From NCBI RefSeq assembly GCF_017305915.1, contig NZ_JAFKJN010000018.1, forward strand, positions 248,001 to 312,000: 64,000 bases of DNA, in the 5' to 3' direction. Shown here piece after piece: positions 8,873 to 53,226 of the stretch. The translations under genes were made by a program, and so were the position numbers. The DNA is from Reyranella sp. (lineage in GTDB: Bacteria > Pseudomonadota > Alphaproteobacteria > Reyranellales > Reyranellaceae). The notes beneath the pieces are model-generated. The model did no database searches, was not told where the DNA came from, and saw nothing but the letters and a program-made list of their open reading frames with translations. Numbering within the stretch: the stretch's first letter is position 1; every line of letters starts with the position of its first letter.

Positions 8873-9898
8873 ATGAGAGAGTGGATCGGGCGGACCGGCC
8901 TTGCCATCGCGGCCGTCGTGTTGACGTTTGGCGTGCTGGAGATCGGGCTGCGCGCCGTTTACGGCTGGCCGCCTTGGGACAACCTGGTGCTCAACGCGCG
9001 GCAAGTGCTGGCCGACCGCGAGCACAGCCGCTTCATCGACGATCCCCTGCTAGGCTACGAGCCCAGGCCCGGCTACACGGCGGCCGGCGTCACCTTCGAC
9101 GGCGAGGGCTTCCGATTGACCGGCGAGGCCCGGCCCGGCCCGGCCCTGCTGGCCGTCGGCGATTCCTACACCTACGGCGACGAGGTGAGCGACGGCGAGA
9201 CCTGGCCCGCCCATCTGCAGCGGCTCGGCGGCGCGCGCGTGCTCAATGCCGGGGTGAGCGGCTACGGCTTCGACCAGAGCGTGCTGCGCGCCGAGAAGGT
9301 CGCGGCGGGCCGCGCGCTGTCGGCGATCGTGGTCGGCTTCATCGCCGACGACATCCGCCGCACCGAGATGAGCCGGCTGTGGGGCGCCAACAAGCCCTAC
9401 TTCGACATCGCCGGGGACCGCCTGGTGCTGCGCAACGTGCCGGTGCCGCCGCGGCCCGATCCGCGCACGACGCTTTCGATCTGGCAGCGCACGCTCGGCC
9501 ATTCGTTCCTGGTCGACTTCGTGCTGCGCCGGCTGGACCTGCTGCACGACTGGTTCGGCGACCACATCCGCGTCCACGGCGAGGGCGAGGGCGAGCGCAT
9601 CGCCTGCCTGCTGGCGGGCCGGCTGGCCGAGCTGCAGCAGATCAGCGGCGCGCGCGTGCTGCTGATGGCGCAGTACGATCCGGTGGTCTGGCAGGATCCC
9701 AAGTTCGCCGCCGAGCAGCGGCGCCTGACCGCCGGCGTGCTGCGCTGCGGTCAACGGGCCGGCCTCGGCGTGCTCGACACCTTCGAGCCGCTGGCCCGCG
9801 CCGAGCCCAAGCACCTCTACGGCCTGTGGCACATGAACGACGCCGGCAACCGGCTGATCGCTGCGCTGGTCGCGGCGGCGCTGAACGGCGCGCCCTGA
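8873..9898 (+). CDS. Membrane-anchored SGNH/GDSL-type hydrolase, first tandem copy
   Basis: A 341-residue protein with one N-terminal hydrophobic segment (about residues 7-24) that should anchor it with the catalytic part in the periplasm. The block I nucleophile motif is VGDSYTYGDE. Block III is probably NAGVSGYGFDQ. The C-terminal His lies in LWHMNDAGN. Members of this fold remove or transfer acyl esters on glycans. It is closely similar to the next gene along its whole length (shared FIADDIRR/FIADDVRR, RNVPVPP, DPR-TTL/STL, GEGERIAC/GEGERLAC), so the pair is a tandem duplication. An ATG at 8861 is an alternative start. It diverges from rsmB. The substrate is unknown. Confidence 0.75.
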   Translation: MREWIGRTGLAIAAVVLTFGVLEIGLRAVYGWPPWDNLVLNARQVLADREHSRFIDDPLLGYEPRPGYTAAGVTFDGEGFRLTGEARPGPALLAVGDSYTYGDEVSDGETWPAHLQRLGGARVLNAGVSGYGFDQSVLRAEKVAAGRALSAIVVGFIADDIRRTEMSRLWGANKPYFDIAGDRLVLRNVPVPPRPDPRTTLSIWQRTLGHSFLVDFVLRRLDLLHDWFGDHIRVHGEGEGERIACLLAGRLAELQQISGARVLLMAQYDPVVWQDPKFAAEQRRLTAGVLRCGQRAGLGVLDTFEPLARAEPKHLYGLWHMNDAGNRLIAALVAAALNGAP

Positions 9899-9899
9899 G

Positions 9900-10970
9900 A
9901 TGGCCGGACGCCTCGCGCTTCTGGTCGGCTCGATCCTGTTCAGCCTGGTCGTGCTGGAGCTCGGCGTGCGCGCCCTCGACGGCTGGGACGGCCTCACCCA
10001 CTGGCCCAACCTGGTGCTGAAGCAGCGCAACGACAGCTGGGCCCGCGGCGACAGCAGCCGCGCCGTGCCCGATCCGCGGCTGGGCTTCGTCGGCCGGCCT
10101 GGCTACCGCTCGGGCGGCGACGGCGCGCTCACCTACGACGCGCACGGCCTGCGGCCGACGCCGGCGCCGGAGGGCATAGCGCTCGCCGAGCCGCCGGTTC
10201 TGGTGGTGGGCGATTCGTTCGCGCATGGCGACGAGGTGCGCGACGGCGAGAGCTGGCCGGCGCGGCTGCAGCCGCTGATCGGCCGCCGCGTGATCAACGC
10301 CGCGATGAGCGGCTACGGCATCGACCAGATGGTGCTGCGCGCCGAGATCGTGGCGAAAGAGGCGAAGCCCGCGGCGATCATCCTGAGCTTCATCGCCGAC
10401 GACGTGCGGCGGGCCGAGATGAAGCGCGTCTGGGGCGCCGAGAAGCCGTACTTCGAGCCGGTGAACGGCGAGCTGGTCGAGCGCAACGTGCCGGTGCCGC
10501 CCTCGCCCGACCCGCGCTCCACGCTCGACCTCTGGCAGCGGCTGTTCGGCTGGTCGGTGCTGCTCGACACCGTGCTGCGCCCCTGGGGCTGGCAATACGA
10601 ATGGGCGATCGACCATGTGCGCGTGCTGCCGCACGGCGAGGGCGAGCGCCTCGCCTGCCCCCTCTTCAAGCGGCTGGCGGCGATCGGCGTGCCGGTGCTG
10701 GTGGTGGCGGAGTACGACTCGTTCCACTGGCGGGACGAGAGCTGGCGCCGGGTGACGCGGAAGACCGATGACGCGGTGCTGGCCTGCGCCGGAGCGGCGG
10801 GGCTGGCGACCCTCGACCTGTTCGAGACCATCGACGAGGGCGTGCGCCGGCAGGGCCTGGGAACGATCTACCGCCGCGGCCATCCCTCGCCCATCGGCAC
10901 CGAGCTGGCGGCGAAACGCATCGCCGCCGAGCTCGCGGCGCGTCACATCCCGCCGGCCACCGCGCGGTAA
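9900..10970 (+). CDS. Membrane-anchored SGNH/GDSL-type hydrolase, second tandem copy
   Basis: The 356-residue paralogue of the preceding gene starts one base after its stop, so they form a two-gene operon. The N-terminal hydrophobic anchor is about residues 4-23. The nucleophile motif is VGDSFAHGDEVRDGESW. The segment NAAMSGYGIDQMVLRAE matches NAGVSGYGFDQSVLRAE of the first copy. The C-terminal catalytic His is in RRGHPSPIG, more like the usual DxxH block than the first copy. The predicted location is the periplasmic face of the inner membrane, with a probable role in acyl-ester transfer or hydrolysis on a surface glycan. No linked acyltransferase lies next to it. Coordinates and start are well supported by the tight spacing. 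Confidence 0.78.
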   Translation: MAGRLALLVGSILFSLVVLELGVRALDGWDGLTHWPNLVLKQRNDSWARGDSSRAVPDPRLGFVGRPGYRSGGDGALTYDAHGLRPTPAPEGIALAEPPVLVVGDSFAHGDEVRDGESWPARLQPLIGRRVINAAMSGYGIDQMVLRAEIVAKEAKPAAIILSFIADDVRRAEMKRVWGAEKPYFEPVNGELVERNVPVPPSPDPRSTLDLWQRLFGWSVLLDTVLRPWGWQYEWAIDHVRVLPHGEGERLACPLFKRLAAIGVPVLVVAEYDSFHWRDESWRRVTRKTDDAVLACAGAAGLATLDLFETIDEGVRRQGLGTIYRRGHPSPIGTELAAKRIAAELAARHIPPATAR

Positions 10971-13146: not shown

Positions 13147-13215
13147 TCACACAGCTTGGAAATCAGGCTCGGTGGAGTATGGTGCCGGCCGTTTCGCCGG
13201 GATGATGACGAGAGA

Positions 13216-14220
13216 ATGAAAAGCGCGCTGAAGAACATCGTCCTGGTGGCGGTCGTGCTCGTGGTCTGCGGCCTTCTGCTCGAGGCGATGACGCGGCTGT
13301 TCGTCGACGACGGCATGACCTACGAGCTCGAGATGTGGAAGTACGCGACCCAGGTGAAGGAGCGCGACTTTCGTCCCGACATGGGCCACAAGCACGGCGC
13401 CAACCGCAGCGCCTCGCTGATGAGCGTGCCGGTGCGCACCGAGGCGCACGGTTTCCGCGGCCCCGCGATCGGCGAGCAGGCGGCGCCGGGCGTGGCGCGC
13501 ATCGCCTTCGTCGGCGATTCGACGACCATGGGCTGGGGCGTCGCCGAGCAGGACACCTTCGCGCATCTGGTGATCGACAAGCTCGCCAGGCAAGGCCGCA
13601 AGGTCGACGGCTTCAACGAGGGCGTCGGCAACTGGAACACCGCCCAGGAGCTGACGAACTTCAAGGACACCGGGATGAAGATGAAGCCCGACATCGTCGT
13701 GCTGACCTACTTCATCAACGACGGCGAGCCGATGCCGACCTATCCCAAGGAGAGCTGGCTCGATCTGCATTCGGCGGCGTGGATCGTGCTGAACTACCGC
13801 CTCGATTCGCTGATCCGCCAGTTCGGCCCGCGGCCCGACTGGAGGCATTACTATCGCAACCTCTACCGCGACGACGCACCCGGCTGGCAGGCGACACAGA
13901 AAGCGCTCGGGGAGTTCGGCCAGATCGCCAAGTCCACCGGCATCAAGATCATCGTCTTCCACCTGCCCGAGCTGCGCGAGCTCGAGCCCTATCCCTTCCA
14001 GGACGTGACCGACAAGGTGAAGAAGGCTGTCGACGCCGCCGGCCTGCCCTTCGTCGACCTGCTGCCGACGGTCGAGAAGATGGATCCGTCGAGCCTGTGG
14101 GTAACCGTCCCCGACCCACATCCCAACAGCAAGGCCGACGCCGCCTTCACCGACGGCATGATCAAGCAGTTGCTGCCGGTGCTCGACGACCTCTGCCGCA
14201 CCCAGCAGAAGGGCTGCTAG
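13216..14220 (+). CDS. Membrane-anchored SGNH/GDSL-type hydrolase, third copy
   Basis: A 334-residue protein. An N-terminal hydrophobic helix (about residues 8-24) is followed by a periplasmic SGNH fold: nucleophile block [18 protein letters not shown], Gly/Asn blocks around [12 protein letters not shown] and TYFINDGEP, and catalytic Asp/His in [10 protein letters not shown]. It shares the fold and the anchor with the tandem pair at 8873-10970 but is more distant in sequence, so it is a separate paralogue. An in-frame start upstream at 13156 would cross the promoter region; the ATG at 13216 places the basic residue and hydrophobic segment correctly. Its stop overlaps the convergent rlmE stop by 4 bases. 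The substrate is unknown. Confidence 0.75.
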
Positions 14221-14943: not shown

Positions 14944-16026
14944 TCAGCCGGGCTGGCGGCGGTGGTGCGGATCGGCATCGCGGTCGGCCTGGCGCATCAG
15001 GTCCATCAGCACGCCCTCGCGCAGGCCGCGATCGGCGACGGTGACCATCGTTGCCGGCCACTGCCGGCATACCGCCTCGAGGATCGCGCCTCCGGCCAGG
15101 GCGAGATCGGCACGGTCGGTGCCGATACAGGGCAAGGTGGTGAGCTCGTCAACCGACATCACCGAAAGTTGGTCGCAGACGCGCAGGATCGATTCGTGGC
15201 TGAGCCGCGAGCCGTCGACCAGGGTGCGGTTGTAGCGCTTCAGCCCGAGGTGATGGGCGCTGACCGTGGTGACCGTGCCCGACGCCCCGATCATCTGGAC
15301 CTCGCCGCGCTGGACGGCACCGCCGATGCTGTGGCGGGCGCAGAACGGCCGCAGGTCGGCGCGGATGCGCGCCACCATCTCGTCGTAGCAGGCGCGCTCG
15401 ACCCGCCGCTCGCGCGGATGGCCGTGCACGCACGACTCGGTGAGCGTCACGACACCCCACGGCACCGAGGTCATGTCGATCAGCTCGATCGAGGTGCCGC
15501 CGCAGCGGCCGCCGCTCCGGCCGACCTTGATCCAGCTCACCTCGGTCGAACCGCCGCCGATGTCGATCAGCAGGCCATAGGGCACGTCCGGATCGAGCAG
15601 GTTCTCGCAGCTCGCGAGCGCCAGCCGCGCCTCCTCGGCGGGCGGGATGACCTCGAAGCGCAGGCCGGTACGGGCATGGACGACGCCCAGGAAGTCCTCG
15701 CCGTTGCAGGCACGCCGGCAGGCCTCGGTGGCGATGTGGCGGGCACGCGTGACGCGATGACGCTCGATCTTGGAGGCGCAGACATCCAGCGCCTCCAAGG
15801 TGCGATCGATCGCCTCGCCGCACAGCGTTCCGCTCAGCGCCACGCCTTCGCCCAGCCGGACCGGCCGCGAATAGGCATCGAGCACCTCGAAGCCGTCGAC
15901 GGACGCCCGGGCCACCAGGAGCCGGCAATTGTTGGTGCCGAGATCGATGGCGGCGAAGGTGTGCGCGAAACGACCGCTGTGCCAGCCTCCCTTTTGCCTT
16001 TGATCCGGCGTTAGGTCCCCGGCCAT
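14944..16026 (-). CDS. Ppx/GppA family exopolyphosphatase
   Basis: A 360-residue single-module member of the Ppx/GppA phosphatase family (actin-like ATPase fold). The phosphate-1 motif is [15 protein letters not shown] near residue 26, the phosphate-2 motif is [14 protein letters not shown], and the adenosine-side loop is ASGTVTTV. The enzyme should hydrolyse polyphosphate or pppGpp in the cytoplasm; sequence alone does not distinguish these. Length is typical for the short alphaproteobacterial form lacking the C-terminal HD-like half. It forms a transcription unit with rlmE behind it. The start has only a weak purine-rich sequence upstream, and an internal start near the first motif is possible. 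Confidence 0.92.
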
Positions 16027-16255: not shown

Positions 16256-16498
16256 GTGGGACGGGGTGAGGTTTACGAACGCCTGAAGAAGATCTTTCTC
16301 GACGTATTTGATTCAGAGACCGAAATAGGCGACCGGACCACGGCCGCCGATGTCGAAGGGTGGGACAGCCTGAGCCACATCCGGCTCATTCTCGCCGTCG
16401 AGAAGGAATTCCGTGTGCGTTTCGCGGCATCGGAAGTCGGCATGTTGAAGAATGTCGGCGAGCTTGTGGGGCTCATCACAGCCAAAGCGGGGAGCTGA
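16256..16498 (+). CDS. Acyl carrier protein of the FkbH-MBOAT cassette
   Basis: An 80-residue acyl carrier protein. The phosphopantetheine attachment motif is GWDSLSHI, with the serine at about residue 38, inside the usual helix II context (VEGWDSLSHIRLILAVEKEF). The start is a GTG with AAGGGG about 7 bases upstream; no ATG fits. It needs a phosphopantetheinyl transferase encoded elsewhere. It is the first gene of a plus-strand operon with FkbH (9 bases later), MBOAT and an SGNH-like protein. The inferred role is to carry the three-carbon acyl group loaded by FkbH to the MBOAT acyltransferase, as DltC carries D-alanine to DltB. Confidence 0.9.
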   Translation: MGRGEVYERLKKIFLDVFDSETEIGDRTTAADVEGWDSLSHIRLILAVEKEFRVRFAASEVGMLKNVGELVGLITAKAGS

Positions 16499-16507
16499 GC
16501 GGTCGCC

Positions 16508-18439
16508 ATGACGTGGTCTCTTCCGGAGCTGCCGTGGCTGCCCGCGGCAGAGGAGTTTCGCGAGCGGTGTCGCGCCGTCGACCCTGCCTCGAGCGGCGCG
16601 GATAGCGAGCTTCGGCGCCTTGCCAACCATACCCTCGACATCAACCAGCTCAGCCAGCTCGCCCGCCTCCTCGGCCGCTGCGAGGCCGCCGGCAACGCGC
16701 TGAAGACCCTCGGCACCGTCCGCCTCGCCCTGCTCGGCAACGGCACCCTCTCCTTGCTGGCGCCGGCAATCCGCGCCACGGGCCTGCGTCACGGCCTGCG
16801 GGTCGAAGTGCTCGAGGCGCCGTTCGGCGCCGTCGCCCAGGAGGCGCTCGACGCCCAGTCAACGGTGAGCCAGTGGAAGCCCGACCTGGCGCTACTGGCG
16901 ATCGACCATCGTGCACTACCCTTGATTGAAAGTATCGACAATCCGGGCCAGTCGGAAAACGGCGTCGTCGACAGCTTGTCCCTCATCCAGACGCTGCGGA
17001 CCAACCTGCGCGAGAATGCGGGTGCCGCCTCGATCGTCCAGACCGTGCCGAGCGTCCCGGCCGCGCTGTTCGGCAGCTTCGATGCCGCCCTGCCTGGTAC
17101 CCTCGGGCGCGCGATCGACGGCTTCAACCGCGAGCTGGCCGATTCGATCGGCGCCAGCGGCGACCTGCTGTTCGACGTCGCGTCGCTTGCCGCCACCGTC
17201 GGCCTCGACCGCTGGCACGACTCAGCCAACTGGAACCACGGCAAGCTGCCGTTCGACCCGCACCTGACCCCGCTCTACGCCGACCACCTGTGCCGCCTGC
17301 TCGCCGCCTATCGCGGCAAGAGCCGCAAGGTGCTGGTGCTCGATCTCGACAACACGTTGTGGGGCGGCGTGATCGGCGACGATGGCCTCGAGGGCATCGC
17401 GCTCGGCAACGGCAGCGCGCTGGGCGAGGCCTTCCTGTCGGTGCAGCAGATGGCGCTGCGGCTGCGTCAGCGCGGCATCGTGCTGGCAGTGTCGTCGAAG
17501 AACGACGAGGCGCGCGCCTTGGAGCCCTTCCGCAGCCATCCCGAGATGCTGCTGCACGAGAACCACATCGCCTGCTTCCAGGCCAACTGGGAGGACAAGG
17601 CGACCAACATCCGCGCCATCGCCGAGGAGCTGTCGCTCGGCCTCGACTCGTTCGTCTTCCTCGACGACAACCCGGCCGAACGCGCGCTGGTCCGCCGCTT
17701 CCTGCCGCAGGTCGCGGTGCCGGAGCTGCCAGCCGATCCGTCGCAATACGCCTCGACGATCTGGGCGGCGGGCTATTTCGAGGCGATCGCCTACTCGTCC
17801 GAGGACGGCAAGCGGGCCGACGACTATCAGGCCAATGCCAGCCGCCGAAAGCTCGAGGGCGCCGCCGGCGACCTCGACGGCTACCTGCGGTCGCTCAAGA
17901 TGAAGATCCACTTCGCGCCGTTCGACGATCCCGGTCGCGCACGGATCTCGCAGCTCATCAACAAGTCCAACCAGTTCAACCTGACCACCCGGCGCTATTC
18001 GGAGGTCGATGTCTCCGATATGCAGCGCCAGGCCGGCATCTTCACCCTGCAGGTCCGCCTTGCCGACATGTTCGGCGACAACGGCATGATCTGCGTCATC
18101 GTCTGCCGCGCCGAAGGCTCGATCTGGGAGATCGATACTTGGCTGATGAGCTGCCGCGTGCTGAAGCGGCGCGTCGAGGAAGCCGTGCTGCAGGAGATCG
18201 TCACCCAGGCCCGCCAGGCCGGGATCAAGACCGTGGTCGGCCGCTACATCCCGACCGAGCGCAACGGCATGGTGCGCGAACACTACAAGACGCTGGGCTT
18301 CGATCTGGTCGAGCAAAGCGATGGCGGTGAGAGCGTCTGGCGCCTCGACGTCGCCTCGACGGCGGACAAGAGCCTGCCCATGCAGGTGATCCGCGAAGGC
18401 TTCACCCCGGTCATCCTCGACAGCGCCGCGGCCGAATGA
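16508..18439 (+). CDS. FkbH-like HAD-family protein (glyceryl-ACP loading type)
   Basis: A 643-residue protein. The N-terminal part (about 50-270) is an SGNH-like or helper region. The HAD core begins near residue 279 with VLDLDNTLWGGVIGDDG, continues with SSKNDEA and contains the second acidic motif FLDDNPAERALV. The C-terminal third (about 470-620) is GNAT-like and holds INKSNQFNLTTRRYSE, a signature of FkbH proteins. Studied family members take 1,3-bisphosphoglycerate and load a glyceryl unit onto an acyl carrier protein. An ACP gene directly precedes it, which supports that chemistry here, though the acyl unit is inferred. Its stop overlaps the MBOAT start (ATGA), indicating translational coupling. 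Confidence 0.9.
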   Translation: MTWSLPELPWLPAAEEFRERCRAVDPASSGADSELRRLANHTLDINQLSQLARLLGRCEAAGNALKTLGTVRLALLGNGTLSLLAPAIRATGLRHGLRVEVLEAPFGAVAQEALDAQSTVSQWKPDLALLAIDHRALPLIESIDNPGQSENGVVDSLSLIQTLRTNLRENAGAASIVQTVPSVPAALFGSFDAALPGTLGRAIDGFNRELADSIGASGDLLFDVASLAATVGLDRWHDSANWNHGKLPFDPHLTPLYADHLCRLLAAYRGKSRKVLVLDLDNTLWGGVIGDDGLEGIALGNGSALGEAFLSVQQMALRLRQRGIVLAVSSKNDEARALEPFRSHPEMLLHENHIACFQANWEDKATNIRAIAEELSLGLDSFVFLDDNPAERALVRRFLPQVAVPELPADPSQYASTIWAAGYFEAIAYSSEDGKRADDYQANASRRKLEGAAGDLDGYLRSLKMKIHFAPFDDPGRARISQLINKSNQFNLTTRRYSEVDVSDMQRQAGIFTLQVRLADMFGDNGMICVIVCRAEGSIWEIDTWLMSCRVLKRRVEEAVLQEIVTQARQAGIKTVVGRYIPTERNGMVREHYKTLGFDLVEQSDGGESVWRLDVASTADKSLPMQVIREGFTPVILDSAAAE

Positions 18440-19860
18440 TCTTCGTCGATACGCGGTTCCTGGCCGTCTGCGCGGCCCTCTTCGTCGTCGGCCGCCTGCC
18501 GCCGTCGCGCCTGCTGCGCGGGGCCGTGCTGGTGGCGGCGAACGTCGTCGTCCTCCACCTGATGGTCGGCAACGTGCTGGCGCTGTGGCCGGTGCTGGCG
18601 CTGGCCGCCATGGGCTACGCCTCGCTGTTCTTCATCCGCCAATCGCGCGGCGTGGCGATGGCCTCGATCGCCGTCGTGATCGCCTTCTTCCTCTATGTGA
18701 AGCGCTATCCGCCGTTCGATGCGCTGCCGACCGGACCGGCGGCGATCATGGCGACCGTCGGCCTGTCCTACGTGCTGTTCCGCACGCTGCACATCATGAT
18801 CGACTTCAAGGACGGCAGCCTGGCGGAGCGGCCGTCGATCGCCACGACCTTCAACTACAATTTCCTGTTCCTGTCGTTCCTGTCTGGCCCGATCCAGCGC
18901 CTCGAGGGCTTTGCCGGCAGCAGTTTTCTCGATCGCCGCGTCAGCATCTCGATCGAGGATTTCGGCCGGCAGGCCGCGCGCGTCGTCACCGGCCTGTTCA
19001 AGATCCTCGTCCTGTCGGGAGTGTTCGAGTACTTCTTCCGGACGGCCCTCTCCGACATCCCGACGGCAGCCGACCACGGCGCGCGTGCCTGGTGGATCGC
19101 GGCCGCGATCGTGGCCTTCGTCGCCTATCTCTACGCCAATTTCAGCGGCTACATGGACGTCGTTGTCGCGATCGGGCGGCTGCTCGGCTTCGACCTGCCG
19201 GAGAACTTCGACCGGCCATTCTCCGCCGCCAACATCCAGGAGTTCTGGCAGCGCTGGCACATCACGCTGTCGCTGTGGATCCGCATCTACCTGTTCGGCC
19301 CCCTGCAGCGCTACATGGTCGAGCGCACCGCGACCAAGGCGGCCGCCGCCAATGCCAGCCTCGCCTGCACCTTCATCGCCTTCTTCGTGATCGGCGCCTG
19401 GCACAGCCCGTCCCTCTCGGGCCTGGTCTACGGCACCCTGCTCGGCCTCGGCGCGCTTGCCCATCAGCGCTATCGCACCTGGCTCGCCACCCGGCTCGGC
19501 CGGCAGGGCCTGCGGGCGCTGGATGGCGAGCTCTGGTACCGATCGGCCGCACGGGCGCTGACACTCACGCATTTCTTCGCCAGCGTGGTCTGCCTGTGGC
19601 CCGACCAGGCCATGGTCGCGATCCTGTTGCACAACCTGCCGACGCTCGACATCGCCGGCGGCCTCGCCCTGATCTTTGTTGCGATCTTCGTGCTGGGCAT
19701 TGTCGCGGCAGCGGCCGCCGCCGTGATGGCCGGCATCCCGCGCTGGCCGCCGGCCTATCTCGCGCGCACCTCGCTGGCGACGGCGCAGATCATCATCCTC
19801 GTCTTCTCCACCTTCGTGGTCGACGCCCCGGTTCCCGGCTTCGTCTACGGGGGATTCTGA
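18436..19860 (+). CDS. MBOAT family membrane-bound O-acyltransferase
   Basis: A 474-residue polytopic inner-membrane protein with about 10-12 hydrophobic segments. MBOAT hallmarks are present: the DltB/AlgI-type segment NFNRPF-like (ENFDRPFSAANIQEFWQRW), the conserved WHITLSLW motif, and the catalytic histidine in FFVIGAWHSPSLSGLVYG about 120 bases later. Proteins of this type move acyl groups from a cytoplasmic donor across the membrane to a periplasmic acceptor. The gene overlaps FkbH by 4 bases and is followed 3 bases later by an SGNH-like partner, the same pairing as DltB-DltD or AlgI-AlgJ. The likely donor is the acyl carrier protein encoded two genes upstream. The acceptor is unknown. 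Confidence 0.9.
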   Translation: MIFVDTRFLAVCAALFVVGRLPPSRLLRGAVLVAANVVVLHLMVGNVLALWPVLALAAMGYASLFFIRQSRGVAMASIAVVIAFFLYVKRYPPFDALPTGPAAIMATVGLSYVLFRTLHIMIDFKDGSLAERPSIATTFNYNFLFLSFLSGPIQRLEGFAGSSFLDRRVSISIEDFGRQAARVVTGLFKILVLSGVFEYFFRTALSDIPTAADHGARAWWIAAAIVAFVAYLYANFSGYMDVVVAIGRLLGFDLPENFDRPFSAANIQEFWQRWHITLSLWIRIYLFGPLQRYMVERTATKAAAANASLACTFIAFFVIGAWHSPSLSGLVYGTLLGLGALAHQRYRTWLATRLGRQGLRALDGELWYRSAARALTLTHFFASVVCLWPDQAMVAILLHNLPTLDIAGGLALIFVAIFVLGIVAAAAAAVMAGIPRWPPAYLARTSLATAQIIILVFSTFVVDAPVPGFVYGGF

Positions 19861-19862
19861 CC

Positions 19863-21020
19863 GTGGCCACCGTACAAGTCCCCGCCGCCGGGCTTCCGCT
19901 CCGGAAGATGCTGCTCGCCATGCTGGCGACGGCGATCCTGACGACGGTCGCGATGATGGGATCGGCCGAGATCCTGGCGCGCTGGCTGTGGCCCAAGTAC
20001 AGCGATCCGACCTGCCTCGTGCCGGCGCGGCTCGGCCAGGTCTACGCCCCCAATTGCGTGCGGCGGGAGCGCATTTCCGAAGGCCAGAGCGAGATCCTCT
20101 ATCGCTACAACGCCTGCGGCCTGCGCAGCGACGGGCCGTGCGCCGCCGAGATGCCGACCGGGGTCCGGATCGCTCTACTCGGCAACTCGTTCCTCGCCGG
20201 CAACCGGGTGAACCAGCCCGACTCGCTCGCCGAGGTGATGGCCGATTCACTGCGCAAGCAGTGCACCAGGGGGATCGACCTCCAGAACCTCGCCGTCGAG
20301 GACTACCTGTTCTTCGATCAGTACTTCCGGCTCGACGCGGCGCTGAAGCTGCATCCGTCGGCCGTCGTGCTGATGGTCATGCCGACCGACATGTTCGAGC
20401 CGATGTCCAGGCAGGAGTGGGAGAGCCGGCACGCCCCCAATGTCATGCGCAAGTCGCGGATTCCCACGACCGATGAAAGCGGCATGTCGCTGCTGGTCCG
20501 GGCACGGCGGTCGCTCCGGAAGAGCCGCGTGCTGGAGATCACGCAGCACTACGTGTTCCAGAACCTGCCGCTCTACGTCCGCCTCTACCGCGCCTATACC
20601 GACGCCGCCTTCGGCGATACCTCGGACTACCTGCTGGCCGCGACGTCGCCGGGTTGGCAGAAGCGCTATGACGACGCTCACCTGATCCTGGGCGAGATGG
20701 CCGAGAAGACGCGGCAGGCCGGCGCGCGGCTGGTGCTCGTCGCTTTTCCGCAGCGCGTGCAGGCGGCCTTGCTCGAACTCAAGACCGACGAGACCCGCGC
20801 CTCGGCCACCGCCTTCACCAAGCAGATGGGCGCCATCGCCAAGGCGAGCGGCGTGCCGTACATCGACGGGCTGGAGCTCATCTCCAGCGAACCTCATCCC
20901 TCACGGCTGTTCTATCCGGTCGACGGCCATCTCAACGTCCCATCGCAGCGGCTGGTCGCCGAGAAGCTCGCCAAGACGCTGGAGAAGCTCGGGATCGTCA
21001 CCGGCGATCAGTGCCGCTGA
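19863..21020 (+). CDS. SGNH-like membrane-anchored partner of the MBOAT acyltransferase
   Basis: A 385-residue protein with an N-terminal hydrophobic anchor (about residues 16-38) and an SGNH-type periplasmic domain. The nucleophile block reads LLGNSFLAGNRVNQPDSLAE; the Asp of the usual GDS is Asn. Block III is near NLAVEDYLFFDQY, and the C-terminal catalytic pair is in VDGHLNVPSQ. Proteins of this fold accept the acyl group from the MBOAT partner (compare DltD, AlgJ/AlgX, PatB). The start is a GTG 2 bases after the MBOAT stop; an ATG at 19908 would cut into the region before the anchor. It is the last gene of the cassette and converges with the MaoC-SDR gene, 5 bases away. Confidence 0.75.
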   Translation: MATVQVPAAGLPLRKMLLAMLATAILTTVAMMGSAEILARWLWPKYSDPTCLVPARLGQVYAPNCVRRERISEGQSEILYRYNACGLRSDGPCAAEMPTGVRIALLGNSFLAGNRVNQPDSLAEVMADSLRKQCTRGIDLQNLAVEDYLFFDQYFRLDAALKLHPSAVVLMVMPTDMFEPMSRQEWESRHAPNVMRKSRIPTTDESGMSLLVRARRSLRKSRVLEITQHYVFQNLPLYVRLYRAYTDAAFGDTSDYLLAATSPGWQKRYDDAHLILGEMAEKTRQAGARLVLVAFPQRVQAALLELKTDETRASATAFTKQMGAIAKASGVPYIDGLELISSEPHPSRLFYPVDGHLNVPSQRLVAEKLAKTLEKLGIVTGDQCR

Positions 21021-21025
21021 CCTAA

Positions 21026-22432
21026 CTAACCCCGGAGCTGGCGCAGCAGGTCGAGCGCGAGTGGCGCCGGGTCCTCGCCCGTCACGCCGGAGCGGTTGAT
21101 CGTCTGGTCGGTCTCGAGCCGCGGCAGCCGCGGCGCGAGAAAGCGGATGTCACGATGCTTCGCCGCCAGCGATGCGATCATCGCCTCGGCGGCGGCCTTG
21201 GCCATCGCGTATTCCGTGAGTCCCGGCTGATGCTCGGCGACGGCCACCGATGACGGGAAGAGCACGCTCGACAGCGACCGGCCCTGCGCCTGCACCGTCT
21301 CGAACAGGCGCAGGAACGCCCGGACATAGGCCTCGAGGAAATGCTCGAACAGCGCGTCCGAGAAGCTTCCCTTGGCGCCGACGAAGATCGGCGGCGTCGC
21401 CGTGTAGAGAAGATGGGTGAAGCCGCCGGCATCGTCGGCGATCCTCCGCAGGCCTGCGGTGTCGTGCTCGAAGATGTCGAGCCGCTCGAACCGGCATTGG
21501 CCGGGCCCGCTGCCCAGCTCCTTCGCGAGCGCTGCCGCTTCGTCCTTGCCCATGTTGAAGGTGCCAACCACCTCGGCGCCGCCCACGACCAGCAGCCGGG
21601 TGAGAGTTCCGCCCAGGCCGCGAGTCGCGCCGACCACGAGGGCTTTGACGCCATTGAATTCACCGGAGGCGATCGAGGACAGCAGCACAGCCTCCTTCGC
21701 CGAGCGTTCGGCGACCGGCCGCTCGAACGCGACCATCGTGCCGCGCACCAGGGGCGAGCCGACCTCGAGCGTCAGGCGGCCGAACCGGTCGTCGAACTCA
21801 GCCACCTTCCACGCCAGGGCCGGCGCGGCCTGCTGTTCGAACCCGAGATCGATCTCGGCCAGGATCGAGCGCAGGCCGGGGCAATGCATGCCTACGATTC
21901 GCGTCAGCGCCGCAAGCACGGCAATCTGGCTGCGCGGCAATCCGGAGGCGAGATCGGGAAACAGCGCTTCGAGGCCCGGGCCGAGCTCGAGCCGTTCCTC
22001 GCCCGTCATCGACGCGAAGGCGCTGCTGTCGACCAGAGCCGGCGCCCCGGGTGCGGGCGCCTCGCTCACCGGCATGTCGTCGATGGCCGAGCGGTCCTCG
22101 TATTCGACCGAGCCGCGCGCTGCGACCGTGCCACGCCACAGGATCCTGAACCGGAGCTTCGGCCACTGGCCGCTGCTTTCGAGCGTGAGCTCATCGCCGA
22201 CCGGCGCCGGCTGAAGGAAGAGCGCCTTCAACGCCCGCAGGCGCGCCCGCCCGCCTCCATGCTGTCGCAGTTGATCGTCGAGCAGCCAGGCGATCAGCAT
22301 GACGCCGTGCACGACCGGCCGATTGAAAATCATCCGGCGCGCCGCAATCGGATCGACGTGGATCGGGTTCACGTCGCCCGACAGCCGGCCGAAGCTCTGG
22401 ACTTCCTGCGGGGCGAAAGAACGGACCGTCAC
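21026..22432 (-). CDS. MaoC-like hydratase fused to an SDR-type reductase
   Basis: A 468-residue two-domain protein. The N-terminal hot-dog domain has the hydratase signature FGRLSGDVNPIHVDP, with VVHGVMLIAWLLD behind it, as in (R)-specific enoyl-CoA/ACP hydratases. The C-terminal domain is a short-chain dehydrogenase: GATRGLGGTLTRLL nucleotide loop and the catalytic YAMAKAAAE (YxxxK). A middle segment (about 140-250) joins them. A frame open to 22492 offers a GTG there, but the GTG at 22432 has AGGAG at a 5-base spacing and is preferred. The joined activities would interconvert 3-oxo, 3-hydroxy and 2-enoyl thioesters. It converges with the ACP-FkbH-MBOAT operon. A link to the same acyl chemistry is possible but unproven. 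Confidence 0.85.
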   Translation of the reverse strand: MTVRSFAPQEVQSFGRLSGDVNPIHVDPIAARRMIFNRPVVHGVMLIAWLLDDQLRQHGGGRARLRALKALFLQPAPVGDELTLESSGQWPKLRFRILWRGTVAARGSVEYEDRSAIDDMPVSEAPAPGAPALVDSSAFASMTGEERLELGPGLEALFPDLASGLPRSQIAVLAALTRIVGMHCPGLRSILAEIDLGFEQQAAPALAWKVAEFDDRFGRLTLEVGSPLVRGTMVAFERPVAERSAKEAVLLSSIASGEFNGVKALVVGATRGLGGTLTRLLVVGGAEVVGTFNMGKDEAAALAKELGSGPGQCRFERLDIFEHDTAGLRRIADDAGGFTHLLYTATPPIFVGAKGSFSDALFEHFLEAYVRAFLRLFETVQAQGRSLSSVLFPSSVAVAEHQPGLTEYAMAKAAAEAMIASLAAKHRDIRFLAPRLPRLETDQTINRSGVTGEDPAPLALDLLRQLRG

Positions 22433-22460
22433 GTCGACTCCTGTGCCTTCGAGAGGCCGC

Positions 22461-22489
22461 TTGCCAAGGGCCTGAGAGGCCGCTAAACC
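22461..22489 (+). promoter_or_regulatory. Candidate promoter of tRNA-Gln
   Basis: TTGCCA (22461-22466) and TAAACC (22484-22489) are separated by 17 bases and lie about 30 bases before the tRNA. The fit to a housekeeping promoter is moderate. The region overlaps the 5' side of the divergent MaoC-SDR gene. Confidence 0.35.
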
Positions 22490-22518
22490 CACCCGCCTGC
22501 CGGCCGTTCGGCGCCCGC

Positions 22519-22592
22519 TGGGGGATAGTTTAACGGTAGAACAACCGGCTCTGACCCGGTTAGTCTAGGTTCGAATCCTGGTCCCCCAGCCA
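22519..22592 (+). tRNA. tRNA-Gln (anticodon CTG)
   Basis: A complete cloverleaf is visible. The acceptor stem is TGGGGGA (22519-22525) with TCCCCCA (22582-22588), followed by G and an encoded CCA. The anticodon stem is ACCGG/CCGGT around loop CTCTGAC, giving anticodon CTG, which reads CAG. The T arm contains GGTTCGAATCC. The D arm holds TAGTTTAACGGTAGAACA. No integrase or repeated tRNA 3' end is visible next to it. Confidence 0.95.
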
Positions 22593-22603: not shown

Positions 22604-23491
22604 TCAGGCCGTGCTCCCCATCAACGCATAGAGACAGGCCGCGCCCCACGCCAGGATGCAGGCGATCAGCGGCCAGTCGGTCAGCAGCACGTCGGTCGGC
22701 GATTCGCCGCTCTCGCGCGTCTCGACCAGGTACCAGTAGCGAAACAGGCCGAAGATCACCATCGGGATGGTGATGACCAGCTGCGGGTTACTCGACATCA
22801 CGAACAGGCTGTAGAAGATCAGCGCGCCGACCGCCGACATCTCGGCATAGCGGTCGACCAGGTTGACCGAGTAGTCCTTGAGCACGCGGCGGCCCTCGGA
22901 GCCCGCGGTGACCAGCTCCTGGCGGCGCTTGATGGCGGCGAGGTAGAGCGCAAGGCAGAGCGTGGTGACCGCCATCCAGCTCGACAGCGGCACGTTGATC
23001 GCCTCGGCGCCGGCATAGATGCGCAGCACGAAGCCGCCGGCGACCGAGAAGATGTCGAGCACCGGCTGGTTCTTGAGGTAGAAGCTGTAGGCGAGGTTCA
23101 GCGCGATGTAGCCGCCGATCGGCACGATCAGCGCCGGGTGGAGGATGAAGCCCGCCACCAGCACCGCGTAGAGCGCCGCCAGCAGCGCCATCGCGGCGTT
23201 CAGCGACACGTGGCCGGCCGCGAGCGGCCGGCTCCAGCTCTTGATCGGATGGGCGCGGTCGCGCTCGATATCCTTGATGTCGTTGACGACGTAGCAGGCC
23301 GACGACGCGATGCAGAACATCGCCAGCGCGAACAGCGCCTGCTGGATGGCGACTGGATCCGTGAAGGACCGCGCGAAGACCAGCGGCGCCAGGACGAACG
23401 TGTTCTTGACCCACTGCTTCGGCCGCCCCAGCCGCAGCAGCGAATAGGCTGTGCTCGGAATTGTCCTTACTCCCCTTACCCCGGCACCCAT
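22604..23491 (-). CDS. UbiA-family prenyltransferase, decaprenyl-phosphate phosphoribosyltransferase-like
   Basis: A 295-residue polytopic membrane protein of the UbiA superfamily. The first Asp-rich motif is NDIKDIERDR, just after the start of the bundle, and the N-terminal LGRPKQWVKNTFVLAPLVF is typical of the subgroup that attaches phosphoribose to decaprenyl phosphate. That step starts decaprenyl-phosphoryl-arabinose synthesis in mycobacteria, and related enzymes occur in proteobacterial envelope loci. The epimerase genes that usually complete the route are not in the window, so the end product is uncertain. It sits 11 bases after tRNA-Gln on the opposite strand, upstream of the polysaccharide locus. 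The metallo-hydrolase gene lies 21 bases upstream on the same strand. Confidence 0.8.
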   Translation of the reverse strand: MGAGVRGVRTIPSTAYSLLRLGRPKQWVKNTFVLAPLVFARSFTDPVAIQQALFALAMFCIASSACYVVNDIKDIERDRAHPIKSWSRPLAAGHVSLNAAMALLAALYAVLVAGFILHPALIVPIGGYIALNLAYSFYLKNQPVLDIFSVAGGFVLRIYAGAEAINVPLSSWMAVTTLCLALYLAAIKRRQELVTAGSEGRRVLKDYSVNLVDRYAEMSAVGALIFYSLFVMSSNPQLVITIPMVIFGLFRYWYLVETRESGESPTDVLLTDWPLIACILAWGAACLYALMGSTA

Positions 23492-24533: not shown

Positions 24534-26777
24534 TCAGCTGCTGTAATAGTCGCGATACTTGGAATAGTAGTAGCCGTAGTCGCCGTAGCCGTACTTGGAG
24601 TGACGGCGGATATCGACCTGCACCAACACCACGCCGATGCTCTTGGGAAGGTCGCGGAACAGCCGCAACGCATTGATCGCAATCTCGCGCGGCGTGCGCT
24701 CCCAGCGCACCAGGAACAGCACGTAGTCGGAGATGCGCGCCGCCACCAGCGCGTCGGCGACCGCCATGATCGGCGGCGTGTCGAGGAAGATCAGGTCGAA
24801 CTGCTCCGACAGCGACTTGATGAACGATTTCATCGCGTTCGAATCGAGGATTTCGGCCGAGTTCGGCGTATTGCTGCGGGCCAGGATATAATAGACGCCG
24901 CTCTGCTCGTCGCGGCCGATCACTTGGTCGAGCGTCTTGGTGCCGGCCAGGTACTCGTCGATCGTGCCCTCGGTGCGCTGTACGCCGAGCGTGCCGGCGA
25001 CCGAGGAGCGCCGCAGATCGCAGTCCATCACCAGGATTTTCTTGTCGATGTTGGAGCGTGCCACCAAGCCTGCCAGCGAGCAGACGAAGGTCGACTTGCC
25101 CTCGGCCGGCAGCGACGAGGTGACCATCACCACGCGCGGCGGCTTGTCGAGGTTGCCGAGCGTCATCGCGGTATAGGCCGAGCGCAGCGCCTCGGCGTAG
25201 GCCGATGTCAGCTTCTCGATGGCGAAGCGTGCCGGCACCATCTTGCCGAGCGTCGAGCGCGACAGGCCGGGGACCATGCCGATCAGCGGCCGGCCGGTCA
25301 GGCGCTCGATCTGCTCGCCGGTACGGAAGCCGCCGTCGAGGCGCTCGAGCAGCAGGATGACGACGGCGCCCAGCACCAGGCCGATCGCCAGCGCGCCAGC
25401 CATGGTCAGCGCATAGCGCGGAAAGGCCGGCGAGGTCGGCAGGTTGGCCGGTGCCAGGATGCGCGCGTCGGGCTGCTGGATGTCCTGCTGCTCGCGCAGT
25501 TCCTTGGAGCGCTTCAGGAAGTCCTCGTAGACAGCGCGGGACGACTGGGATTCGCGCTCGAGTTGGCGCAGTTCGACCTCGTTCAGGCCCAGTCCGCCGG
25601 CACGGCGCTCCAGGTCGTCGACCTGGGCTTGCAACTGCGCCTCCTTGGCGCGCGCGGCCTCGGCGTCGCCCTGGACGCTGGAGATGATCTTCGCGACCTC
25701 CTGGCTGATGCGGCCCTGGATCTGACCCTGCTCGGCGCGCGCCTGCAGGATGCGCGGATGGCTGTCGCCGTAGCGCTGGCCCAGGTCGCCGACGCGGCGC
25801 GCCACCTCGGCCTCCTGGGCACGCAGCGACGAGATCAGCGAATTGGCCAGCACCTCGGTCACGCCGCCCAGCGTGGCGGGGTTGCGCGCCGCCTGCTGCA
25901 AGGCGATCAGGCGCGATTCCTTATCGGCGCGCTGGGCACGCGCCTGGACGAGCTGCGAGTTGAGCTCCGACAGCGACTGCGCGGCGATGGTCGCGTCTTT
26001 GGCGATGGTCAGGCCCGACTTTTCGCGGAAGGCGGCGACGGCGCGCTCGGACACCTCGACGTTGCGCTTCAGCTCCTCGAGGCGGTCGTTGAAGAAGTCG
26101 GTCGCACGCTTGTTGGCGTCGAGCTTCGCCTGCAGCTGGTCGACGATGTAGTAGTCGGTGATGGTGTCGAGGATCCGCTTGGCCTTGACCGGATCGTTCG
26201 AATCCATAGAGATCGCGATGACGTAAGAGCGGCCGCGCGCCAGCGTGGTGAGGTTGCGGGTGAGCGCCGTGATCGCGCGCGAACGCGGGCCGTTGTCGGC
26301 GTTGGCGGGCGTATCGGGTGCCTTGCGGAATGGCACGTACTTGGACACCATCTCCTTGCCGCGCTGGATCAGGTCGCCGATCACGGACCGCCGCACCGCA
26401 CCGAACTCCGGATCTAGGTCGAGATGCAGCTTGTCGGAGACGCGGCCCAGCAGGGCCGCCGAGCGGATGATCTCGATCTCGGTCTGGATCGCCGGGATAT
26501 CGATCACGCCCGTGGTCAGCACGTCGGCGGTGTTGGTCACCTTCGCCTTGCGGGTGTCGAGCATGACCATCGCCGACGAGCGGTACTCCGGCACCAGCTG
26601 CAACAGCAGCAGCGCCGTCAGGGCGCAGACCAGCGCGGTGACACCGACCAGGTGCCACTTGCGGCGGTTGAACATCCGAAGCAGTTCGCGCGCCTCGATC
26701 CGCGCGGTCGCTCCGAACGCCGGCAGGTTGGGCTTGCGCTCTTCGGTCGTCGTCGTGGTCTCGGTCGCGGTGCTCAC
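24534..26777 (-). CDS. Wzz-type chain-length regulator fused to a BY-kinase (module A)
   Basis: A 747-residue polysaccharide co-polymerase with its cytoplasmic tyrosine kinase in one chain. The first membrane helix is about residues 45-60, followed by a long periplasmic coiled-coil region, and the second helix is near AFPRYALTMAGALAIGLVLG. The kinase part has Walker A SSLPAEGKSTF, Walker A' ILVMDCDLRRSS and Walker B LIFLDTPPIMAV. The C-terminal end (KYGYGDYGYYYSKYRDYYSS) holds nine tyrosines, the autophosphorylation cluster. It controls chain length and export through Wza. The start is GTG. It follows the Wza-like gene (26904-27443) and the barrel gene (27544-28872) on the same strand, though a terminator separates barrel and Wza. 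Confidence 0.93.
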   Translation of the reverse strand: MSTATETTTTTEERKPNLPAFGATARIEARELLRMFNRRKWHLVGVTALVCALTALLLLQLVPEYRSSAMVMLDTRKAKVTNTADVLTTGVIDIPAIQTEIEIIRSAALLGRVSDKLHLDLDPEFGAVRRSVIGDLIQRGKEMVSKYVPFRKAPDTPANADNGPRSRAITALTRNLTTLARGRSYVIAISMDSNDPVKAKRILDTITDYYIVDQLQAKLDANKRATDFFNDRLEELKRNVEVSERAVAAFREKSGLTIAKDATIAAQSLSELNSQLVQARAQRADKESRLIALQQAARNPATLGGVTEVLANSLISSLRAQEAEVARRVGDLGQRYGDSHPRILQARAEQGQIQGRISQEVAKIISSVQGDAEAARAKEAQLQAQVDDLERRAGGLGLNEVELRQLERESQSSRAVYEDFLKRSKELREQQDIQQPDARILAPANLPTSPAFPRYALTMAGALAIGLVLGAVVILLLERLDGGFRTGEQIERLTGRPLIGMVPGLSRSTLGKMVPARFAIEKLTSAYAEALRSAYTAMTLGNLDKPPRVVMVTSSLPAEGKSTFVCSLAGLVARSNIDKKILVMDCDLRRSSVAGTLGVQRTEGTIDEYLAGTKTLDQVIGRDEQSGVYYILARSNTPNSAEILDSNAMKSFIKSLSEQFDLIFLDTPPIMAVADALVAARISDYVLFLVRWERTPREIAINALRLFRDLPKSIGVVLVQVDIRRHSKYGYGDYGYYYSKYRDYYSS

Positions 26778-47302: not shown

Positions 47303-47309
47303 CGCCCGC

Positions 47310-48923
47310 ATGTCCAACGCCGGCCGCATCGGCCTCGGGACTGTCCAGTTCGGAATGGCGTACGGCATCGCCAATCCGCATGGCCAGGTCGCTCTCGAAA
47401 CCGCCGCCGAGATCCTCCGGCTCGCGCGCGGCGCCGGCGTGCGCCTGCTCGACACCGCGGCGGCCTACGGCCAGGCCGAGGAAGTGCTCGGCCGGCTGGT
47501 CGCGCCGGATGACGGATTCCGGATCATCACCAAGACCGCGCCCGGTGCCGGCATCCAGGGCGTGGTCGACCGCGCCCGCCAGTCGCACCGCGTGCTAGGC
47601 GGCCGGCGCCTGCACGGCCTGCTGGTCCATTCGGCCGCCGACCTGCGCACGACCGACGGCCCGGCGTTGTGGGGAGCGCTGCAGGGTCTGCGCGACGAAG
47701 GCCTGTTCGCGCGCATCGGCATTTCCGTTTACGCCTCGGACGACCCGCTCGAGCTGGCCCGGCGCTTCCGCCCCGACATCATGCAGCTGCCGGTGAGCGT
47801 GCTCGACCAGCGGCTGGTCCGGAGCGGCGTGCTGCGCGGCCTCAAGGATCTCGGCGTCGAGATCCATGCCCGCTCGCTGTTCCTCCAAGGCGCGATCTTC
47901 CTCGATCCGGCAAAGCTGCCGCTCTGCCTCGCCCATGCTGCGCCCCGGCTCGCGGCCTTCCAAGCTCGGCTGGCCGCGCTCGGCCTGTCGCCCGTCGAGG
48001 CCGGCATCGGCTACCCGTTGTCGGTCCCGGAGATCGACTACGCCCTCGTCGGCGTCACCGCGGTCGCGGAAAGCCACCAGATCCTTTACGCCGCGGCACA
48101 GGACCGCAGCGGCGTGCCGTGGCATGAGCTCGCCGTCGATGACGAGGTCCTGCTCGATCCGCGCCAGTGGGTGTCCGACGAGGCATTCCGTGCCCGCGCC
48201 GCGGCCAAGCCGGTCGTGCTAGCGGTCCTTCAGGCTCGCATGAGCTCGACGCGTCTGCCCGGCAAGGTGCTGAAGCCGATCCTCGGCCGGCCGATGCTGG
48301 GCCGCCACATCGACCGGCTGAAGCGCAGTAGGATGATCGACCGCCTCGTGGTGGCGACCAGCGTCGATCCCAGCGACGACCCGATCGCCGCCTTCTGCGC
48401 CGCCGAGGGGATTGGCTGCCATCGCGGCTCCCTGCACGACGTGCTGGCCCGCTACGAGGGCGCCGCCCGGGACAACGATCCGGTCGACCACATCGTCCGG
48501 CTGACCGGCGACTGTCCGCTCGCCGATCCCGAGGTCATCGACCGCACGATCGAGATGCACGTCGCCGGGCAATACGACTATTCGTCGAACACCAATCCGC
48601 CGACCTATCCCGACGGCCTCGACACCGAGGTCATGACCCGGGAAGCCCTGCGCCTGATGGCGGTGGAGGCAGCGACCGCCCACCAGCGCGAGCACGTCAC
48701 GTCGTTTCTCTACACCCAGCCCGAGCGCTTCCGGCTGGGCAAGCTGCACAACGACACAGACCAGAGCCTGATGCGCTGGACTGTCGACACACCGGACGAC
48801 TTCCACATGGTCGACGCGGTCTACCGCGAGCTGCTGCCGGTCAACGAGCGGTTCGGCTCGGCGGACATCCTGGCGCTGCTCGAGCGCCGGCCGGACATCG
48901 CTGCCATCAATCGGCCGCGCTAA
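47310..48923 (+). CDS. Aldo/keto reductase fused to SpsF-type cytidylyltransferase
   Basis: A 537-residue two-domain protein. Residues about 1-290 form an aldo/keto reductase TIM barrel (GLGTVQFGMAYGIANPHGQ, RLLDTAAAYGQAEEVLG, LHGLLVHSAADL). Residues about 305-537 are a CTP-transferase of the SpsF/NeuA superfamily (LAVLQARMSSTRLPGKVLKP, IVRLTGDCPLADPEVIDR, DYSSNTNPPTYPDGLDTEV). The cytidylyltransferase half could be the missing CMP-nonulosonate activating step. The reductase half could modify the sugar chain. The ATG at 47310 is 7 bases after the previous stop. The stop overlaps the glycosyltransferase start (TAATG). Confidence 0.88.
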   Translation: MSNAGRIGLGTVQFGMAYGIANPHGQVALETAAEILRLARGAGVRLLDTAAAYGQAEEVLGRLVAPDDGFRIITKTAPGAGIQGVVDRARQSHRVLGGRRLHGLLVHSAADLRTTDGPALWGALQGLRDEGLFARIGISVYASDDPLELARRFRPDIMQLPVSVLDQRLVRSGVLRGLKDLGVEIHARSLFLQGAIFLDPAKLPLCLAHAAPRLAAFQARLAALGLSPVEAGIGYPLSVPEIDYALVGVTAVAESHQILYAAAQDRSGVPWHELAVDDEVLLDPRQWVSDEAFRARAAAKPVVLAVLQARMSSTRLPGKVLKPILGRPMLGRHIDRLKRSRMIDRLVVATSVDPSDDPIAAFCAAEGIGCHRGSLHDVLARYEGAARDNDPVDHIVRLTGDCPLADPEVIDRTIEMHVAGQYDYSSNTNPPTYPDGLDTEVMTREALRLMAVEAATAHQREHVTSFLYTQPERFRLGKLHNDTDQSLMRWTVDTPDDFHMVDAVYRELLPVNERFGSADILALLERRPDIAAINRPR

Positions 48924-52759: not shown

Positions 52760-53226
52760 CCGCGATGGCCGGCCTGGCGCCAGGCGCGCTGGCGCGCCTC
52801 GGCGTGCTCGGGGTCGACCATGTGGCGGTGACCACCCGCCGCTTCGAGGAGACCCTCGCCGACTACCTGTCCGCGCCGGGCGCCAAGCTCGTGAAGGGCC
52901 CGGGCTGGAATCCGACCCAGAAGGTCGACTACGCCTTCGTCGCCGTGAACAGCGGCCTCACGGTCGAGATCCTCGGCTTCAAGGAGGGCGTCGACTCGCC
53001 GATCGAGCAGCATGTCCGGCGCGGCGGCGGTGCCTACCATCTCTGCTTCGTCGTCGCCGATATCGAGGCCGCCCTGGCCGAGGTCAGGGCGGCGCGCGGC
53101 ATGATCGTGCTCAAGCCCACGCCCGACGTCGCCTTTGGGGGGAGACGGATTGCGTTCTTCATGCATCGGGCCCATGGACTGGTCGAATTGGTGGAGGCTG
53201 AAAAGCCGGGGGAAGGGAAAGAATGA
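52756..53226 (+). CDS. VOC-family metalloprotein (glyoxalase/epimerase-like)
   Basis: A 156-residue vicinal oxygen chelate protein with two beta-alpha-beta-beta modules: GVDHVAVTTRRFEETLADYL in the first and GAYHLCFVVADIEAALAEVR in the second, with a metal-type Glu/His context (LGVDHV, TVEILGF, GAYHLCF, LVELVEA). It resembles methylmalonyl-CoA epimerase and glyoxalase-like enzymes. Its place between FkbH and an ACP suggests it acts on the carrier-bound acyl unit, for example by epimerising it. That is inference. ATG 52756 overlaps the FkbH stop; ATG 52765 is an alternative. Confidence 0.8.
   Translation: MTAMAGLAPGALARLGVLGVDHVAVTTRRFEETLADYLSAPGAKLVKGPGWNPTQKVDYAFVAVNSGLTVEILGFKEGVDSPIEQHVRRGGGAYHLCFVVADIEAALAEVRAARGMIVLKPTPDVAFGGRRIAFFMHRAHGLVELVEAEKPGEGKE

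Follow-up and report, generated by a model that had tools for sequence, protein, structure and literature searches.

A horizontally acquired ACP-FkbH-MBOAT-SGNH cassette in Reyranella as a candidate surface glycan acylation system

We analyzed a window of 64,000 nucleotides from Reyranella sp. (Alphaproteobacteria; assembly GCF_017305915.1, contig NZ_JAFKJN010000018.1, forward-strand positions 248,001 to 312,000; genome size, 6.47 Mb) that encodes, at positions 16256 to 21020 and entirely on the plus strand, a tight operon for an acyl carrier protein (ACP), an FkbH-type protein, a membrane-bound O-acyltransferase (MBOAT), and an SGNH-type protein. We read this cassette, with moderate confidence, as having been acquired horizontally and as serving to O-acylate a surface glycan by way of a carrier protein; it would draw D-glyceryl (or lactyl) groups from 1,3-bisphosphoglycerate (1,3-BPG) through FkbH and the ACP. 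Only 9 bp separate the ACP and FkbH genes, those of FkbH and MBOAT overlap by 4 bp, and 2 bp lie between the MBOAT and SGNH genes. The four-gene order given in a preliminary description of this DNA is confirmed, with each product scoring above its family cutoff and retaining its diagnostic residues (Table 1). A promoter and terminator scan gave no signal above that of shuffled sequences, and an Rfam scan returned tRNA as its only match.

The FkbH protein combines an FkbH_N domain, a HAD-IIIC phosphatase domain, and a C-terminal GNAT fold; in its structural model (pLDDT 88), the N-terminal and HAD regions resemble 3slr (TM score 0.91) and the C-terminal region matches many GNAT folds. It carries both the catalytic aspartate pair of HAD enzymes (D279 and D281) and the conserved cysteine of an MSCR motif (C549), as expected of a member of the FkbH family. 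These residues, together with S330, K331, and D386, are invariant in 84 aligned sequences, and we infer that C549 is the candidate acyl-carrying cysteine. The closest relative of the ACP in the PDB is 2lml, a putative acyl carrier protein (E = 3e-14), and S38 is invariant in an alignment of relatives (75 of 75). About 10 transmembrane segments are predicted by hydropathy in the MBOAT protein, which matches the DltB structure 6bug (E = 7e-23) and in which H323 is invariant and H275 98% conserved among 56 aligned relatives. For the SGNH protein, ALGX and Lipase_GDSL_2 are the only Pfam matches; its AlphaFold2 model (pLDDT 89) has a single N-terminal transmembrane helix (residues 13 to 42) and an SGNH fold with counterparts in the PDB (best E = 2e-7), and all 34 relatives keep S109 and H356, with D354 in 27.

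Table 1. Cassette genes, borders of the unit, and the second FkbH module (window positions)
Feature	Positions	Strand	Length and evidence	Place in the system
Ppx/GppA-type phosphatase gene	14944-16026	-	conserved at 76-88% in congeners	unit boundary, outside the system
ACP	16256-16498	+	80 aa, GTG start; PP-binding 25.4 bits (gathering 20.8); S38 in WDS motif	cassette
FkbH	16508-18439	+	643 aa; TIGR01686 303.2 bits (cutoff 146.65); FkbH_N 34.5 (cutoff 27)	cassette
MBOAT acyltransferase	18436-19860	+	474 aa; PF03062 45.3 bits (cutoff 27); His323	cassette
SGNH protein	19863-21020	+	385 aa; ALGX (PF16822) 29.6 bits (cutoff 26.5); Ser109/Asp354/His356	cassette
MaoC dehydratase-SDR fusion	21026-22492	-	488 aa; MaoC 56.8 bits, adh_short 40.2; D-x-N-P-x-H and Y-x3-K motifs	
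tRNA-Gln(CTG)	22519-22592	+	ARAGORN	other boundary of the acquired unit
FkbH2	51035-52759	+	574 aa; TIGR01686 258 bits	related module, outside the MBOAT cassette
VOC protein (Glyoxalase_4)	52756-53226	+	Pfam 44.7 bits; FkbH-linked VOC profile E = 4e-25	overlaps FkbH2
ACP2	53223-53462	+	PP-binding 33.7 bits	overlaps the VOC gene

A genome scan with the FkbH protein as the query returned 80 relatives at 38 to 60% identity, distributed across Pseudomonadota, Acidobacteriota, Vulcanimicrobiota, Myxococcota, Verrucomicrobiota, and Planctomycetota, while a phage search gave two distant FkbH matches only. The preliminary description had proposed surveying genomes for the four-gene order, and the set does recur, with ACP, MBOAT, and SGNH genes together beside FkbH in 29 of the 87 loci that make up the full set. 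Neighborhoods were counted in the 48 loci where FkbH is flanked by 5 kb or more on each side. An ACP lies within 2 kb in 46 of these and an MBOAT within 5 kb in 36, of which 31 are same-strand; an SGNH protein is recognized by profile as well in 20. The loci with these neighbors span Pseudomonadota, Acidobacteriota, Vulcanimicrobiota, and Myxococcota. The cassette is a widespread accessory module and not a single curiosity.

The association of FkbH with MBOAT holds from both directions. Because the Reyranella genome holds just two MBOAT genes, a chance adjacency to FkbH has a probability well under 1%. Since the loci had been gathered by an FkbH query, we ran the reverse test with the MBOAT protein against 385 alphaproteobacterial genomes; among nine non-self matches, the best four, including the only two of full length, have FkbH and an ACP within 5 kb, and none of the next five do. 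Pairwise distances of FkbH also correlate with those of MBOAT (r = 0.68, n = 53), ACP (r = 0.89, n = 74), and SGNH (r = 0.58, n = 25), values that are inflated by shared ancestry and that were never reached in 1,000 permutations.

The borders of the acquired unit are set by a phosphatase gene (ppx) and a tRNA-Gln gene. The gap between them measures about 114, 117, 120, 134, and 734 bp in five congeners and 6,492 bp in the window, where it is filled by exactly five genes: the cassette and a convergent gene for a MaoC-SDR fusion protein. No FkbH ortholog was found in congeners, just 36 to 38% partial matches in 2 of 36, and none of the MaoC-SDR gene in the 22 congeners searched, which gave weak SDR-domain matches only. 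Sequence beyond the tRNA differs among those congeners with enough of it to compare, marking this as a variable site in the genus. By the empty-site comparison, all five genes were either acquired together at this variable site or lost together in other genomes, and gain is the simpler reading.

We assign the MaoC-SDR gene to the unit as its fifth member, as it recurs beside such cassettes and has no congener ortholog. Its product matches a profile built from the MaoC-SDR proteins that adjoin other FkbH genes (E = 2e-112), the gene directly follows MBOAT in several acidobacterial loci (L013, L019, L020, and L025), and MaoC or MaoC-SDR genes occur near FkbH in 16 of the 87 loci when split MaoC genes are counted. 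Terracidiphilus gabretensis, a culturable environmental bacterium, carries the cassette and a MaoC-SDR gene as well. The protein probably tailors the acyl group while it is bound to the ACP. Other recurrent cassette neighbors are an S-adenosylmethionine-dependent methyltransferase and a Glyoxalase_4-type VOC protein, from the superfamily that includes methylmalonyl-CoA epimerase. Methyltransferase and VOC genes co-occur (p = 0.0016; p = 9e-6 in all loci), and VOC and MaoC or MaoC-SDR genes are never found together (0 of 18 versus 12 of 30 loci, p = 0.0015; 0 of 30 versus 16 of 57, p = 8e-4). With tree correction, the opposition of VOC and MaoC-SDR always keeps its direction, with too few pairs for significance (median p = 0.125). 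This exclusion suggests alternative tailoring, to a lactyl group in one case and to a methylated or epimerized glyceryl group in the other. The cassette may thus deliver something other than plain glyceryl, given that MaoC-SDR here and methyltransferase with VOC elsewhere recur beside the cassette.

We hypothesize that FkbH would take glyceryl from 1,3-BPG, strip the phosphate, and load D-glyceryl on the ACP. Such loading is expected here because of FkbH family membership and the conserved residues. It is established for the FkbH-type loaders of polyketide pathways, and tetronate and methoxymalonyl biosynthesis is accepted to obtain its glyceryl-ACP from an FkbH protein and an ACP, in tetronates from 1,3-BPG (PMC7489565). 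The MaoC domain may then remove water across C2-C3 of glyceryl-ACP, giving the pyruvyl-ACP enol, and the SDR domain may reduce this pyruvyl-level intermediate to lactyl-ACP; in the variant found elsewhere, the methyltransferase and VOC protein would instead methylate and invert the glyceryl group. The MBOAT would accept the ACP-bound acyl group on the cytoplasmic side and pass it across the membrane, where the anchored, predicted periplasmic SGNH protein would place it on glycan hydroxyls.

The target would most likely be the exopolysaccharide (EPS) or capsule whose export genes lie ∼2 kb past the unit: Wzc (24534 to 26777) and a Wza-like gene. Comparable genes accompany the cassette on pSymB of Sinorhizobium meliloti (loci L087 and L140), where MBOAT, ACP, and FkbH genes lie ∼4 kb from those for a capsular polysaccharide biosynthesis protein, an ABC transporter, and RkpR, with a KpsF-type gene also there. 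Members of the Wzc, Wza, Wzx, or glycosyltransferase families were recognized in the fetched flanks of 13 of the 48 loci, that of the window included. These neighboring export genes support a glycan target without naming the polymer. Between the unit and wzc lies a UbiA-family gene (22604 to 23491) that scores 213.6 bits against decaprenyl-phosphate phosphoribosyltransferase (cutoff, 234); it adjoins a metallo-beta-lactamase-fold gene and wzc and may indicate that the exported glycan contains a pentose. Upstream, three more SGNH-type genes (9003 to 10970 and 13156 to 14220) lie among housekeeping genes (guaB and rlmE) and match the profile of the cassette SGNH protein weakly.

The window contains a second FkbH module, an FkbH2-VOC-ACP2 operon (51035 to 53462) with no MBOAT. 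The surrounding pseudaminic acid cluster encodes PseB, PseC, PseI, and PseG equivalogs that score above cutoff. We consider this operon a candidate for attaching a glyceryl-type group, N- or O-linked, to the nonulosonic acid. The same pseudaminic acid cluster contains a KidO-type aldo/keto reductase fused to a CMP-sugar cytidylyltransferase-like domain (47304 to 48920). Such decoration of pseudaminic acid has a structural precedent in Campylobacter jejuni 11168, where flagellin carries dimethylglyceryl-pseudaminic acid derivatives that depend on cj1295 (PMC3068675). According to the passages of PMC7099621 used here, the derivative is present in 11168 and was undetected in strain 12664, in which the fkbH-type cj1302 is a pseudogene, and in strain 12661, which is missing the epimerase gene cj1301. 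Those data are suggestive of a link between cj1302/cj1301 and the dimethylglyceryl group, a link that is our own and is not drawn in those passages, in strains that also differ in other genes. The Campylobacter locus (cj1295 and cj1301-cj1302) resembles the second module of the window in joining fkbH and epimerase genes to a glycan locus with glyceryl-type decoration; it differs from the cassette in that no MBOAT/SGNH pair is known to act there, and the role of cj1302 is putative. A broader generalization, which we offer tentatively, is that of a widespread and as yet unnamed family of glycan acylation systems fed by glycolysis, in which glyceryl-ACP would follow one of two exclusive tailoring routes (MaoC-SDR or methyltransferase with VOC epimerase) before export by MBOAT and SGNH. 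It is equally tentative that the window would then hold one module of the MaoC-SDR type and one of the VOC type without MBOAT.

Several observations weigh against carrier-dependent glycan acylation by the cassette. An MBOAT is absent from the vicinity of FkbH in 12 of the 48 loci, so the FkbH-ACP pair serves other transferases too, and export or glycosyltransferase genes were recognized near only the 13 loci noted above. The MaoC-SDR gene, being convergent, stands outside the cassette transcript. The cassette MBOAT scores 153.5 bits against the DltB equivalog (cutoff, 375) and an AlgI-like MBOAT elsewhere in the genome scores higher (167.7 bits); the former is thus no closer to the ACP-using DltB than this control, and sequence ties it neither to DltB nor to an ACP donor. 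Finally, the genes could be inherited together even if the MBOAT did not draw on the ACP that FkbH loads.

Alternatively, the MBOAT and SGNH proteins might be an ordinary AlgI/AlgX-type O-acetylation pair running on acetyl-CoA, with FkbH and the ACP separately making an N- or O-acylated sugar nucleotide and only the glycan pathway shared. The match of the SGNH protein to ALGX, an MBOAT that is not specifically DltB-like, the 12 loci without MBOAT, and the MBOAT-free module of the pseudaminic acid cluster all fit such a division of labor. We nevertheless think it unlikely, even as the strongest of the competing explanations, since the closest MBOAT relatives in the reverse search lie beside FkbH and ACP (4 of 4, versus 0 of 5 for more distant ones), FkbH and MBOAT distances correlate, and the four genes are translationally packed in the window.

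Carrier-dependent acylation might alternatively serve a lipid, a protein, or a small secreted glycoside and not a polysaccharide, which we also regard as improbable. In known systems, such SGNH partners have glycans of the periplasm as their substrates; the cassette has capsule or EPS genes as neighbors both in the window and in Sinorhizobium; and no nonribosomal peptide synthetase (NRPS) or polyketide synthase domain is present among the cassette genes scanned. What favors a nonpolysaccharide acceptor is the small share of loci with recognized export or glycosyltransferase genes (13 of 48), along with the cyanobacterial suomilide and varlaxin clusters, which contain both FkbH domains and MBOAT enzymes (PMC10143770, PMC13122637). 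In those clusters, the MBOAT is assigned to the sugar of a peptide glycoside, as a separate tailoring step, and FkbH to an NRPS loading domain (PMC10143770, PMC13122637). That the enzyme loads some other phosphorylated acid of three or more carbons, so that the group is neither glyceryl nor lactyl, is the least credible of the alternatives and quite improbable: the FkbH proteins considered here do form a subfamily of ∼640 aa with an FkbH_N domain, but none of the 84 aligned sequences departs from the HAD motifs or the MSCR cysteine. To our knowledge, moreover, every known FkbH substrate is glyceryl from 1,3-BPG.

We also considered the cassette as a general source of the glycerate in sphingans. 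Native gellan carries L-glycerate, and in a 2015 review an acetyltransferase is the sole acyl enzyme from outside the operon to be named as verified (PMC4443731, PMC9104527). Sphingomonas trueperi and Sphingomonas sp. NFR04 have both the cassette and an rmlA/GelK-type locus. The link lacks support as a general account, as just 2 of the 11 genomes whose GelK reaches at least 79% identity have a long FkbH, and stereochemistry also opposes it, since FkbH chemistry would give D- and not L-glycerate. In S. trueperi (L130, L128, and L095), a sphingan cluster of the gel/sps type is recognizable by gene order, with the FkbH cassette elsewhere in the genome. Sphingomonas genomes with sphingan clusters also encode a distinct 516-aa FkbH-like protein followed by an ACP (L135, 7598 to 9474; equivalents in L136 to L138); the gene adjoins a putative serine palmitoyltransferase-type gene and is possibly sphingolipid related. 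From the loci, we read this pair as a separate pathway.

If our reading of the cassette is correct, FkbH would constitute a third activation route for MBOAT/SGNH machines, besides the acetyl-CoA type and the DltA type, with an acyl donor taken straight from a glycolytic intermediate. Such a route could be the source of glyceryl- or lactyl-type esters that bacterial polysaccharides carry and that have no assigned genes, and it would offer a portable gene set for making modified polymers. The preliminary description knew of no characterized example of the ACP/FkbH/MBOAT/SGNH combination, in agreement with our full-text search of the open-access literature, where nothing that describes FkbH together with an MBOAT as a glycan system turned up.

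Among known systems, the cassette invites comparison first with Dlt, in which DltA, DltB, DltC, and DltD carry out the D-alanylation of teichoic acids. Both comprise a carrier, a loader, an MBOAT, and an SGNH protein, and in both the acyl group would pass through a membrane MBOAT to an external polymer; the carrier here has the phosphopantetheine serine (S38) of a PP-binding ACP. They differ in the loader, which is FkbH in the cassette and the adenylating DltA in Dlt, and a Pfam scan of the five genes of the unit found no AMP-binding domain of the DltA type. The SGNH protein is not matched by the DltD family, and the proposed acyl group is not an amino acid. The label "Dlt-like" from the preliminary description therefore stands for the logic of the system, as supported by recurrence, co-inheritance, and intact residues, but does not extend to membership, with no DltA, an MBOAT below the DltB cutoff, and an SGNH protein that is not DltD. 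The AlgI/AlgX systems that O-acetylate alginate and similar EPS in Gram-negative bacteria share the pairing of an MBOAT with an ALGX-type SGNH protein, both above gathering thresholds here; they lack a dedicated ACP or loader, whereas the cassette has both, linked and co-inherited. The glycerate utilization and methoxymalonyl-ACP cassettes of tetronates, FK520, and tetromadurin share FkbH and a free ACP, which produce glyceryl-ACP. Neither a FabH-like ligase nor FkbI/FkbK-type dehydrogenases came up in family scans of the unit, which instead pairs FkbH and ACP with MBOAT and SGNH proteins, and its product is expected on a glycan and not in a polyketide.

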